From a virus, in the IMG/VR virus record IMGVR_UViG_3300044675_004173, positions 1 to 34,779 of that record: a DNA stretch of 34,779 nucleotides. One strand, given 5' to 3'. The notes beneath the pieces were generated by a model. It did no database searches. It had not been told where the DNA came from and saw only the letters and a program-made list of their open reading frames with translations. Made by a program: the position numbers and the translations under genes. Shown here in pieces: positions 25,835 to 34,023 of this stretch. The first letter of the stretch is position 1, and each line of letters starts with the position of its first letter.

Positions 25835-25861
25835 GTTGCAATTTTCTTATTAACTTGATAT

Positions 25862-25880
25862 TTTCACAACGGTGCGGGAA
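25862..25880. promoter_or_regulatory. Operator-like motif, site B
   Basis: TTTCAC-AACGG-TGCGGGAA. It matches sites A (23502) and C (26172), and the match to A extends outwards (CACAAC before, CCTG after). Located at the end of the Cro-like gene and upstream of the primase gene. Also framed by TTAACTT (25850-25856) and AAGTTAA (25880-25886). Confidence 0.5.
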
Positions 25881-25882
25881 AG

Positions 25883-26116
25883 TTAAATGCCTGCGAGATC
25901 ACGCACGCTCAACTTGATCTTCCGTTTCTTGGCTGTTGCCAGAAGCAGCGGCCAGTACTTTTGGGGCACCAGGCCGTTCGTTCCTTTGTTTGCTTTGTCA
26001 TAGCCCCACCGAGTGATCGTTGACTTGGATACGTCCAGGATGCGGGAGACCTCTGCATTGGACCCAAATGCGTCAATTACGGCCTGGGCAGGAGACTTTT
26101 CTTCTCTCTTTGACAT
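25883..26116 (-). CDS. Cro-like HTH regulator
   Basis: 77 aa. A single helix-turn-helix unit: AQAVIDAFGSNAEVSRILDVSKSTITRWGYDKANKG, with ILDVSKSTITRWG as the turn and recognition helix, then a basic tail (KKRKIKLSVRDL). It is small, without a second domain, and divergent from the CI-like repressor, the usual Cro position. No ribosome site precedes ATG. A candidate promoter TTGAGA-17-TAAAAC reads straight into the ATG, so the message may be leaderless. It could also activate or time the primase gene downstream. Confidence 0.8.
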   Translation of the reverse strand: MSKREEKSPAQAVIDAFGSNAEVSRILDVSKSTITRWGYDKANKGTNGLVPQKYWPLLLATAKKRKIKLSVRDLAGI

Positions 26117-26125
26117 GGTTTTATC

Positions 26126-26137
26126 TAACAGTTGTTA
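26126..26137. repeat. Dyad TAACA-GT-TGTTA in the divergent control region
   Basis: Perfect 5-bp inverted repeat between the Cro-like and CI-like genes. It overlaps the -35 of the candidate repressor promoter. Probable operator half-sites (inference). Confidence 0.4.
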
Positions 26138-26160
26138 ATATCTCAATAGGATAGTAAAAT
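26132..26160 (+). promoter_or_regulatory. Candidate repressor promoter (PRM-like)
   Basis: TTGTTA (26132-26137), 17-bp spacer, TAAAAT (26155-26160): a good sigma70 match. The start of transcription would fall near 26167, giving a short leader before the repressor ATG at 26186 or 26207. The inverted repeat TAGGA...TCCTA (26147-26167) spans the -10 and start point. Confidence 0.55.
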
Positions 26161-26171
26161 TGTCCTAGAAC

Positions 26172-26186
26172 TTCCACCTGCGGGAA
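26172..26186. promoter_or_regulatory. Operator-like motif, site C
   Basis: TTCCAC-C-TGCGGGAA, ending on the first base of the ATG at 26186. It is the third copy of the motif at 23502 and 25862, with the shortest spacer. Binding here would repress or autoregulate the repressor gene (inference). Confidence 0.45.
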
Positions 26187-26815
26187 TGTTAAACACGAAC
26201 GAGATCATGAATACGAAACCTAATACTGAATTCAACAAACAGTGGTTTGTTAGCCGGCTACAAGCGATCAAATTGTCGCAACGACGCCTGGCGAAGATGA
26301 TTGATCTCGACCCCTCGGCCGTGACTCTGATGTTGAGCGGACGCAGAAAGATTACAACCGGCGAGGTCCACAAAATCGCGAACATCTTAAACGTCTCTGT
26401 CGCAGAAATAATGCGCCATGCAGGCATTGATGTCACTGATGATGTGCGCAAGGTAAAAATCAAAGGTTTCATAGGGGAAAAGTCGCGCGTCACCTTTTTT
26501 GAAGACGGCTCATTTGACTGGGCCATCGCTCCTGCCGATGTCCCCAACGACTCATTCTGTTTGCAAGTGCGTCAGCCCGGATCGACCAACGATGGCTGGC
26601 TGATTTTTGTATCTGGCGAAAAGACAACAAGCCAAAACCTTGTTGACCGCCCAGCTCTAGTCGAGCTTGCTGACGGCACACAGATGACTTGCTTGGTGCG
26701 CCGTGGGTACAAGGCCAACACAGCAAACATCTACCCCCTGCACGGCGCTGGCGATACCCTCGAGAATCAAACCATTGCCTGGGCAAGCCCAGTGCTTTGG
26801 ATCCGTCCCGCTTAG
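26186..26815 (+). CDS. CI-like repressor with degenerate S24-type C-terminal domain
   Basis: 209 aa. N-terminal XRE HTH at about 27-55 (AIKLSQRRLAKMIDLDPSAVTLMLSGRR), continuing into EVHKIANILNVSVAEIM. The C-terminal 100 residues are a beta-domain like the LexA/S24 fold (SFCLQVRQPGSTNDGWLIFVSG... VELADGTQMTCLVRRGYKANTANIYPLHG... PVLWI). The S24 catalytic Ser-Met of 'GDSM' is not present at the expected point and no clear Ala-Gly cleavage site is seen, so RecA-driven self-cleavage is doubtful. An internal ATG at 26207 is an alternative start, since 26186 overlaps operator site C. Maintains lysogeny (inference). Confidence 0.82.
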   Translation: MLNTNEIMNTKPNTEFNKQWFVSRLQAIKLSQRRLAKMIDLDPSAVTLMLSGRRKITTGEVHKIANILNVSVAEIMRHAGIDVTDDVRKVKIKGFIGEKSRVTFFEDGSFDWAIAPADVPNDSFCLQVRQPGSTNDGWLIFVSGEKTTSQNLVDRPALVELADGTQMTCLVRRGYKANTANIYPLHGAGDTLENQTIAWASPVLWIRPA

Positions 26816-26830
26816 TTGTTTTTACCCTCA

Positions 26831-26859
26831 TTTGCATTTCGTTTTAGTGTTGCTATAAT
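26831..26859 (+). promoter_or_regulatory. Early plus-strand promoter with extended -10
   Basis: TTTGCA (26831-26836), 17-bp spacer, TATAAT (26854-26859) with TGC directly before it, a consensus extended -10. It is the best promoter in this part of the genome and precedes the first gene of the long plus-strand operon by about 30 nt. The start site is expected near 26866. Confidence 0.7.
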
Positions 26860-26890
26860 CTCAACGCGTTATTAAAAACAGGAGATATTC

Positions 26891-28106: not shown

Positions 28107-28121
28107 TGGAGTGTTGAGATT

Positions 28122-28505
28122 ATGGCAACAGTTAAAGAACTTACCAATGATTGGCTGGCAGCAAAAACCGATGAGCGCCTGGCAAACCTGCGCCGCATCG
28201 CGGTCGAAGAGGCGTTGATCAAGCTCGTCAACACTAAGGAAGAAGGCTCTGTCACGACTGACATTGGCGACGGCATCAAGATCACCACAGTCGGCAAGCT
28301 TTCCTACAAGGTCGACCGAGTCACGCTCGATGAGCTCACCGAGAGCTGGCCCGAGGACATTCGTCCACTACGCCTCGAGCTCAAGGTCGACGAGACGCGC
28401 CTTAAAAAAATCCGCTCAGAGCAACCCGCGCTCTGGTCCCAAATCGCCCGCGCTATTGAGGTCAAGCCTCAGAAGACTGGCGTCTCTATTGAAATTGAGG
28501 AGTGA
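28122..28505 (+). CDS. Early protein, paralogue of 27240..27587
   Basis: 127 aa with GGAG before ATG. A helical N-terminus (KELTNDWLAAKTDERLANLRRIAVEEALI), a strand region (GIKITTVGKLSYKVD), then SWPEDIRPLRLELKVDETRL and EQPALWSQIARAI as in its paralogue. It directly precedes the Sak4-like ATPase, an arrangement I associate with many proteobacterial phages. Probably an accessory of that recombination module. No catalytic motif seen. Confidence 0.78.
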   Translation: MATVKELTNDWLAAKTDERLANLRRIAVEEALIKLVNTKEEGSVTTDIGDGIKITTVGKLSYKVDRVTLDELTESWPEDIRPLRLELKVDETRLKKIRSEQPALWSQIARAIEVKPQKTGVSIEIEE

Positions 28506-31888: not shown

Positions 31889-32364
31889 GCTACACAATCG
31901 GATTTGACCCAGGCCTGGACGGCGCCTTCACCGTCCTGGACGACAACGCACAGATAGTCCAGACCTTTGACATGCCGACCGTCGAGGTCAAGGTGGGCTC
32001 GAGCATGAAGCGCAAGGTCGCCCCCCAGGCGATTGTCGCGGAGCTCCAGCTGTTTACCCGCGAGCCCTGCTTTGCCGTGGTCGAGAGCGTGTCTGCGAGG
32101 CCTGGGCAGGGTGTGACCTCAATGTTTGGCTTTGGTCGCTCCCTGGGCGTCCTAGAGGGGCTTCTGGCGGGTCTGATGATCCCTTATCAGCTGGTGCCGC
32201 CTCAGACCTGGTCCAAGGCCATGAAGCTTGCGCCTGGCAAGGGGGCCAGCCGGCAGCGGGCGATGGAGCTCTGGCCGGCCCACGCCAGTGAGTTCAAGCG
32301 AGTTAAAGACGACGGGAGAGCGGATTCAGCCCTGCTCGCCCTTTATGCCATCCTGCACCGTTGA
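31885..32364 (+). CDS. RuvC-like Holliday junction resolvase
   Basis: 159 aa. RNase H-fold acidic residues: D8 in IGFDPGLDGA, E67 in AVVESV, and D142/D143 with D147 in VKDDGRADSALLALYA. It also has FGFGRSLGVLEGLL and VPPQTWSKAMKL, which match the phage/poxvirus-type RuvC family. It would resolve branched replication or recombination intermediates before packaging. Overlaps the winged-helix gene by 4 nt. Near its end begins the integrase-region promoter. Confidence 0.88.
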   Translation: MSYTIGFDPGLDGAFTVLDDNAQIVQTFDMPTVEVKVGSSMKRKVAPQAIVAELQLFTREPCFAVVESVSARPGQGVTSMFGFGRSLGVLEGLLAGLMIPYQLVPPQTWSKAMKLAPGKGASRQRAMELWPAHASEFKRVKDDGRADSALLALYAILHR

Positions 32365-32368
32365 GAAT

Positions 32369-32398
32369 TTGACAACATATCATGCTTAAAACTATACT
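32369..32398 (+). promoter_or_regulatory. Strong promoter inside the excisionase-like gene start (pI-like)
   Basis: TTGACA (32369-32374), 18-bp spacer, TATACT (32393-32398): 6/6 and 5/6 to consensus. The ATG of the excisionase-like gene (32382) lies between the two boxes, so RNA starting near 32405 lacks that start codon but contains the whole integrase gene. In lambda, pI lies likewise inside xis and yields integrase alone. Confidence 0.65.
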
Positions 32399-32702
32399 GG
32401 AAACAGCAGTCGAGCTTGGAGTATCAAGCTCAACTGTGCGTCGATTGATCGACAAGGGCCAGCTGCCTGCCTACCGGATCGGAGGCGCATGGCGGCTGGA
32501 TTTAAACGAAACCAAGGAAGCACTTAAACACAAACCCAAGGAACACGAACCATGTCTATATTTAAACGAGGGGACGTCTGGCACATCCACATCCAGACAG
32601 ATCACCACACAATTAGAAGATCGGCTAAGACAAGCTCGCGAAAAGCTGCGCAAGAGCTCCACGACAAAATCAAGGCTGATCTGTGGGAGCAGGAGCGCTT
32701 AG
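32382..32702 (+). CDS. Excisionase-like HTH protein (MerR/Xis-type fold)
   Basis: 106 aa. Residues 5-50 form a helix-turn-helix with a wing: ETAVELGVSSSTVRRLIDKGQLPAYRIGGAWRLDLNETKEAL, as in excisionase/DNA-binding families. The second half, from codon 57 on, is read out of frame through the start of the integrase gene (151-nt overlap), is polar and Ser/Thr/Arg-rich, and ends in CGSRSA. No ribosome site is obvious, and the -35/-10 of the strong promoter flank the ATG. Probably controls excision, or represses integrase, or both. Confidence 0.72.
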   Translation: MLKTILETAVELGVSSSTVRRLIDKGQLPAYRIGGAWRLDLNETKEALKHKPKEHEPCLYLNEGTSGTSTSRQITTQLEDRLRQAREKLRKSSTTKSRLICGSRSA

Positions 32703-33538
32703 GCGTCAAGCCCAAGTACACCTTCGAGCAGGCCGCAGTCCGCTGGCTTGATGAGAAGGACCACAAGCGCTCGATTCGCGACGATATTGCGAAGCTTGAG
32801 TACTTCCGTATTCACCTGGCCAAGCTGACGTTAGACAGCATCACCCGCGACCAGGTTGTCGAGCTTCTTGCTGGATTTGAAACGCCTGCGACCAAAAATC
32901 GCTACGTCGCATTGCTGCGTGCAATCTTCAGGCGTGCTCGCGATGTTTGGGAGTGGGTCGATCGCGTCCCAGCCTTCCAGACTTACGTTGAGCAGAACTC
33001 TCGAGTGTCGTACCTAACACCTGCCCAATTTAACGGCCTGGTGGATGCGTTGCCGGAGGCTCACAAGGCTCCTGCAGTGCTTGCCGTCTCCACGGGCTTG
33101 CGCAAGTCAAACATCTACGGCTTGCGCTGGGACCAGGTTGATCTCGAGAAGCGTATGGCGTGGATCAATCCCGAGGAGGCCAAGGCGGGACGCGCGATTC
33201 CTGTACCTTTGAATGATGACGCTTACAAGGCGATCAAAGCTCAAGAGGGCAAGAGCGATGTCTTTGTCTTTACGTGTGAGCAGATTAGTTGGAAGGCATG
33301 GCAGGCGGCGCTTAAAAAAGCTGACTTGCCGCAGACCATGAGATTCCACGATCTGCGGCATACCTTTGCCAGCTGGCATGCAATGGCCGGGACGCCAATG
33401 CATGTCATCCAGGAGTTAGGGGGCTGGAGATCAGCTTCAATGCTCCAGCGGTATGCACACCTATCCCAAAAACACCTGATCGAACAGGCCAAGAACATCA
33501 ACATCAGTTCGAGGCCAAATCTAAGGGCTGTTGCTTAA
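32552..33538 (+). CDS. Tyrosine recombinase integrase
   Basis: 328 aa. The N-terminal SIFKRGDVWHIHIQTDHHTIRRSAKTSS is the arm-binding start of phage integrases. The catalytic domain has R184 (TGLRKSN), K211, H266-x-x-R269 (FHDLRHTF), W292 (GGWR, in the H/W position) and nucleophile Y301 (MLQRYAHLS). It inserts phage DNA at the tRNA-Asn site held at 33976..34023. The start ATG lies inside the excisionase-like frame. A strong terminator follows within 6 nt. Confidence 0.93.
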   Translation: MSIFKRGDVWHIHIQTDHHTIRRSAKTSSRKAAQELHDKIKADLWEQERLGVKPKYTFEQAAVRWLDEKDHKRSIRDDIAKLEYFRIHLAKLTLDSITRDQVVELLAGFETPATKNRYVALLRAIFRRARDVWEWVDRVPAFQTYVEQNSRVSYLTPAQFNGLVDALPEAHKAPAVLAVSTGLRKSNIYGLRWDQVDLEKRMAWINPEEAKAGRAIPVPLNDDAYKAIKAQEGKSDVFVFTCEQISWKAWQAALKKADLPQTMRFHDLRHTFASWHAMAGTPMHVIQELGGWRSASMLQRYAHLSQKHLIEQAKNINISSRPNLRAVA

Positions 33539-33543
33539 CTACC

Positions 33544-33566
33544 AAAGGGGCTTCGGCCCCTTTTTT
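33544..33566 (+). terminator. Integrase operon terminator
   Basis: AAAGGGGC-TTCG-GCCCCTTT then TTT, an ideal 8-bp stem with a stable UUCG loop and U-run (stems 33544-33551 and 33556-33563). The stop codon of the convergent lipoprotein gene (33565) lies in the U-run, so it separates the two convergent units. Confidence 0.9.
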
Positions 33567-33975: not shown

Positions 33976-34023
33976 TGGCTCCCCGAGCTGGACTCGAACC
34001 AGCGACCTGCGGATTAACAGTCC
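33976..34023 (-). other. attP core: 3' half of tRNA-Asn(GTT)
   Basis: 48 bp. On the minus strand it starts in the anticodon stem, includes the loop with GTT, the T arm (GCTGG-TTCGAGT-CCAGC), acceptor strand TCGGGGA, discriminator G and CCA. No 5' half is present, so it is not a complete tRNA gene but the phage copy of the tRNA 3' end, which restores the host tRNA after integration. Only one copy occurs in the window, as expected for excised phage DNA. The TCGGGGA acceptor strand is of Burkholderiales type (inference from family knowledge). Confidence 0.85.

Follow-up and report, generated by a model that had tools for sequence, protein, structure and literature searches.

The window analysed here is the whole of a viral record (IMG/VR IMGVR_UViG_3300044675_004173), 34,779 nucleotides long. 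Near its right end it carries a predicted excisionase gene, xis, that runs out of frame into an integrase gene, int, with a promoter-like sequence at the xis start and a probable attachment site beyond int:

32369–32398, plus strand: putative pI-like σ70 promoter, TTGACA-N18-TATACT, from sequence match
32382–32702, plus strand: xis, 106 aa, predicted excisionase with an HTH_17 domain, P22 Xis family, from profile matches
32538–32542: SD-like AAGGA of int
32552–32702, plus strand: out-of-frame overlap of 151 nt, encoding the last 50 residues of Xis and the beginning of Int
32552–33538, plus strand: int, tyrosine integrase, 328 aa (PF00589, 1.7e-31; phrog_1, 3e-60)
33544–33563, plus strand: intrinsic terminator directly 3ʹ of int
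33976–34023, minus strand: tRNA-Asn(GTT)-like gene, 3ʹ part only, the probable attP core downstream of int, from inspection

A P22-type module in a lambdoid genome

The predicted Xis has matches to HTH_17 (1.5e-9) and to two excisionase families, phrog_66 and phrog_2907 (2e-6 for the latter, over positions 8–116 of a 117-position profile). P22 Xis itself falls in phrog_2907 (3.8e-52), and family membership thus places the window's protein among HTH excisionases of the P22 Xis type. Int is 37–40% identical to the integrases of P22-type phages. As in those phages, a tRNA 3ʹ end lies downstream of int; inspection of this piece reveals a T-arm (GCTGG-TTCGAGT-CCAGC) and a GTT anticodon. Neither ARAGORN nor Rfam called a tRNA in the 33976–34023 fragment, and in the att region Rfam returned only a hit to a Brucella sRNA, which was terminator-like, fell well short of the gathering score and is a chance match.

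The genome as a whole has the lambdoid order cro, cI, pL operon, xis, int, att. The early regulatory region comprises:

25883–26116, minus strand: cro-like gene, with weak similarity to P22_Cro, below the cut-off
26186–26815, plus strand: cI-like repressor gene (Cro/C1-type HTH)
26831–26859: pL-like promoter

Recombination genes (Sak4-like, SSB-like, Cas4-type exonuclease and RuvC-like) separate pL from xis, and an endolysin gene follows the tRNA-Asn-like piece. An earlier note on this DNA had considered the arrangement apparently unrelated to that of lambda. This view does not hold: the lambdoid gene order, the phrog_2907 Xis and the P22-like frame of the overlap all relate the window to lambda and P22. 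At the window ends (89 and 34754) lie a small membrane-protein-like gene on the left and the endolysin gene on the right, both on the minus strand. The record seems to be a circularly permuted, near-complete genome, and one relative (G007) is permuted differently.

The xis–int overlap

The int and xis starts are offset by 170 nt (mod 3 = 2), which puts the two genes in different frames, and the 151-nt overlap is where the earlier note had placed it. Overlaps of about 90–150 nt with an offset of 2 (mod 3) are typical of P22-type modules. Is the C-terminal half of Xis functional, or is its frame merely open through the codons of Int, with only the HTH half of the protein mattering? For the window alone, the second possibility looks adequate, since synonymous codon resampling of int keeps the overlap frame open with P = 0.61. 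Across the family, however, it becomes very unlikely. The frame is open for at least 91 nt in all 15 dereplicated representatives that carry xis (null probabilities 0.09–0.61), whereas in 16 integrases that lack an upstream xis the opening in the same frame ranges from 4 to 466 nt. Moreover, divergence at fourfold sites of int is 0.305 within the overlap and 0.549 elsewhere, a difference seen in 67/67 pairs, although the pairs are not independent. No such constraint is seen in integrases without xis (0.397 versus 0.394). Third positions of int are second positions of xis, and a halving of silent divergence is therefore what selection on Xis predicts. Hence, the family-wide constraint on silent sites indicates that full-length Xis is conserved and that the large overlap is genuine dual coding. 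The earlier note had left it undecided whether the 106-aa protein or only its HTH half is maintained, and had raised the prospect that relatives interrupt the frame; the comparison favours the full-length protein, and the frame is intact in every xis-bearing representative.

The window's own clade is not decisive on this point. Its fourfold divergence is 0.078 in the overlap and 0.243 elsewhere, but the low stretch reaches past the overlap, and recent recombination is therefore possible. Int codons 21–60 (32552–32850, in L001–L007) have no fourfold change in this clade, compared with 0.24 for the rest of the gene. A group of related integrases with 43–47% identity (L018–L038, L051 and L065) lacks an HTH ORF upstream in the frame used by P22.

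A promoter-like sequence and an operator-like palindrome at the xis start

The promoter-like sequence consists of a −35 hexamer TTGACA (32369–32374), an 18-nt spacer and a −10 hexamer TATACT (32393–32398). The xis ATG (32382) is inside the spacer, which places the −35 at −13 relative to the ATG and the −10 at +11. This is the near-perfect match described in the earlier note, and it is the only site in the window that matches the σ70 consensus at 11/12 positions. The likeness to lambda pI that the note perceived is also borne out: counted from the xis ATG, the lambda CII site starts at −26 and there is a −10-like hexamer at +8, and thus the pI elements bracket the start codon there too. The predicted RNA start is at about 32405, some 20 nt inside xis, and the next in-frame start-like codon is a GTG (32436) within the HTH. 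Judged by position, then, this is a promoter within the xis start whose RNA, initiating downstream of the ATG, should be unable to give functional Xis and would yield Int alone.

A lambda-type CII site (TTGCN6TTGC, scanned as TTGCN6TTGY) was not found near the promoter. The −35 is a perfect consensus, in contrast to the poor −35 of the CII-dependent lambda promoter. Given near-consensus hexamers and no CII site, the window's pI should fire unaided.

The promoter sequence is kept in 7/7 close relatives, but the pI region is near-identical in those genomes, such that its conservation is no evidence in itself. A DNA-level search of a phage collection with the window returned no match, and a search with the Xis protein returned the same seven close relatives and no more distant ones.

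Overlying the −35 is a 17-bp palindrome, which we refer to as O_I and which the earlier note had missed. The palindrome belongs to a set of operator-like sites with no assigned strand:

32360–32376: O_I, GTTGAGAATTTGACAAC, covering the int promoter −35, from motif and matrix
26131–26147: O_R, GTTGTTAATATCTCAAT, between the cro-like and cI-like genes, over a pRM-like −35
26849–26865: O_L, GTTGCTATAATCTCAAC, which includes the pL-like −10
28113–28129: S4, GTTGAGATTATGGCAAC, across the ORF 28122 start and a minus-strand promoter-like −10

Visual inspection first revealed the motif at three of the four sites, pI among them, and the site at 28113 came later; a repeat finder run on promoter regions missed the operators, and the sites found by eye were then checked by pattern and matrix. 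O_I is an exact match, at 13 positions, to the motif common to the pR/pRM, pL and 28113 sites, GTTGNNANNNTCTCAAC, which also fits the sites at 26849 and 28113 and, with one mismatch, that at 26131. With a matrix trained without the pI site, O_I ranks fourth genome-wide with a score of 21.5, the next site scoring 16.6, and none of 60 random genomes gave a comparable result.

Relatives with a repressor 80–82% identical to that of the window support the reading of these sites as operators. In these genomes, O_R is identical at 17/17 positions while only 14–28 of 40 flanking bases match, the O_L palindrome is kept amid largely unrelated flanks, and 15–16 of the 17 positions of S4 are retained. Thus, the same palindrome stands at pR/pRM and pL and persists while its surroundings diverge. 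All seven close relatives have the same O_I sequence, but they also match the window almost throughout the surrounding DNA, and the conservation of O_I is therefore not evidence. Exact 17-mer scans of viral contigs with O_I and O_R recovered the known relatives and a few others, about the number expected by chance from a hand estimate.

There are two further observations on the motif. A weaker member, CTTGATATTTTCACAAC (25854–25870), lies between the cro-like gene and a primase/helicase gene and is the fifth best genome-wide. S4 lies within the pL operon, and the minus-strand −10 that it covers reads CATAAT; S4 may mark an antisense promoter or a roadblock.

Could the promoter match and the palindrome be accidents in an ordinary P22-type xis/int module, with int transcribed only from pL? 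At least one 11/12 σ70 match occurs somewhere in 26/200 order-1 random genomes, or about one genome in eight, and among the P22-type relatives that we examined outside the window's own clade, none has a comparable near-consensus promoter at the xis ATG. Nonetheless, local composition predicts only ~0.0012 such sites per 100 bp at this particular spot, the operator motif, defined independently, falls exactly on the −35, and the elements are arranged much as in lambda pI. We therefore regard coincidence as unlikely.

The position of O_I suggests control by a repressor rather than by CII. An operator common to pR/pRM and pL covers the pI −35, and so the repressor or Cro should switch pI off. The protein that binds O_I could be the product of the cI-like gene or, alternatively, of the cro-like gene, or it could be another protein. 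An opposite reading, that during establishment either the repressor itself or a CII-like protein activates pI through the palindrome, as CII does in lambda, strikes us as improbable. The palindrome is indeed placed much like the lambda CII site relative to the xis ATG, with its centre near −37 from the predicted RNA start. However, the same motif holds the pL −10 and the pRM −35, places suited to repression; the pI −35 is already a perfect consensus; and no gene resembling cII was seen next to cro.

Proposed control of integration and comparison with known systems

Our understanding of how temperate phages time the production of Int without Xis comes mainly from lambda, in which CII is the activator. 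We propose that the window probably carries a P22-type xis/int pair with an int-only promoter under direct control of the repressor or Cro. The module closes the lambdoid pL operon, and transcription running on from pL would provide full-length Xis of 106 aa, together with Int made from its own ribosome site; this would be the excision mode. RNA from pI would provide Int alone, with no need for CII, until the repressor (or Cro), once made, shuts pI through the 17-bp operator on its −35.

A more elaborate version, also without CII, would have graded repressor occupancy set the order of events: O_L, bound tightly, would shut pL and hence Xis first, and O_I, bound more loosely, would shut pI last. 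That O_I is the looser site is a guess from its lower matrix score, and we consider this version possible but doubtful. If true, it would create a short int-only interval during establishment, and the immunity repressor itself would time integration.

Overlapping excisionase/integrase pairs of the P22 type are well known, and that of P22 was reportedly described in the 1980s. In P22 (BK000583), epsilon34, mEpX2, HK639 and Aaphi23, as in the window, xis is directly upstream of int, with attP/tRNA downstream. The P22 overlap is 124 nt, with an offset of 227 and the same relative frame as in the window; the overlaps in epsilon34 (145 nt), mEpX2 (124 nt), Aaphi23 (127 nt) and HK639 (124 nt) likewise have an offset of 2 (mod 3). 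In HK639 (NC_016158), the overlapping P22-type xis is not annotated (L014:1789–2124). These phages share the Xis PHROG family of the window, Aaphi23 weakly. Unlike the window, they lack a near-consensus promoter around the xis ATG, and no phage operator has been identified there.

Lambda pI lies within xis and its RNA makes int without xis (PMC2951348), but it needs CII and has TTGCN6TTGC where the window has near-consensus −35 and −10 hexamers and an operator-like palindrome. The lambda overlap is only 23 nt (mod 3 = 1), and lambda Xis belongs to a different family, phrog_629. Mycobacteriophage BPs resembles the window in having repressor sites at several promoters across the genome; its repressor and site are unrelated to those of the window, and its int and repressor genes share a transcript (PMC4557955). 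The intS promoter of KplE1 is a precedent for an integrase promoter that is directly repressed, as we propose here, but there Int and the RDF, acting at attL, take the place of an immunity repressor, and int and the RDF gene are uncoupled (PMC2951348). Our literature search found no report of direct CI control of an int promoter, although absence there is no proof.

The gene arrangement and the dual coding in the window are of the P22 type and known from annotated records. What looks new, from the sequence, is an apparently self-sufficient pI whose operator-like palindrome sits where lambda has an activator site. If our proposal is correct, a P22-type module whose int promoter fires unaided and is governed by an operator of the phage itself would be a simpler solution than CII.
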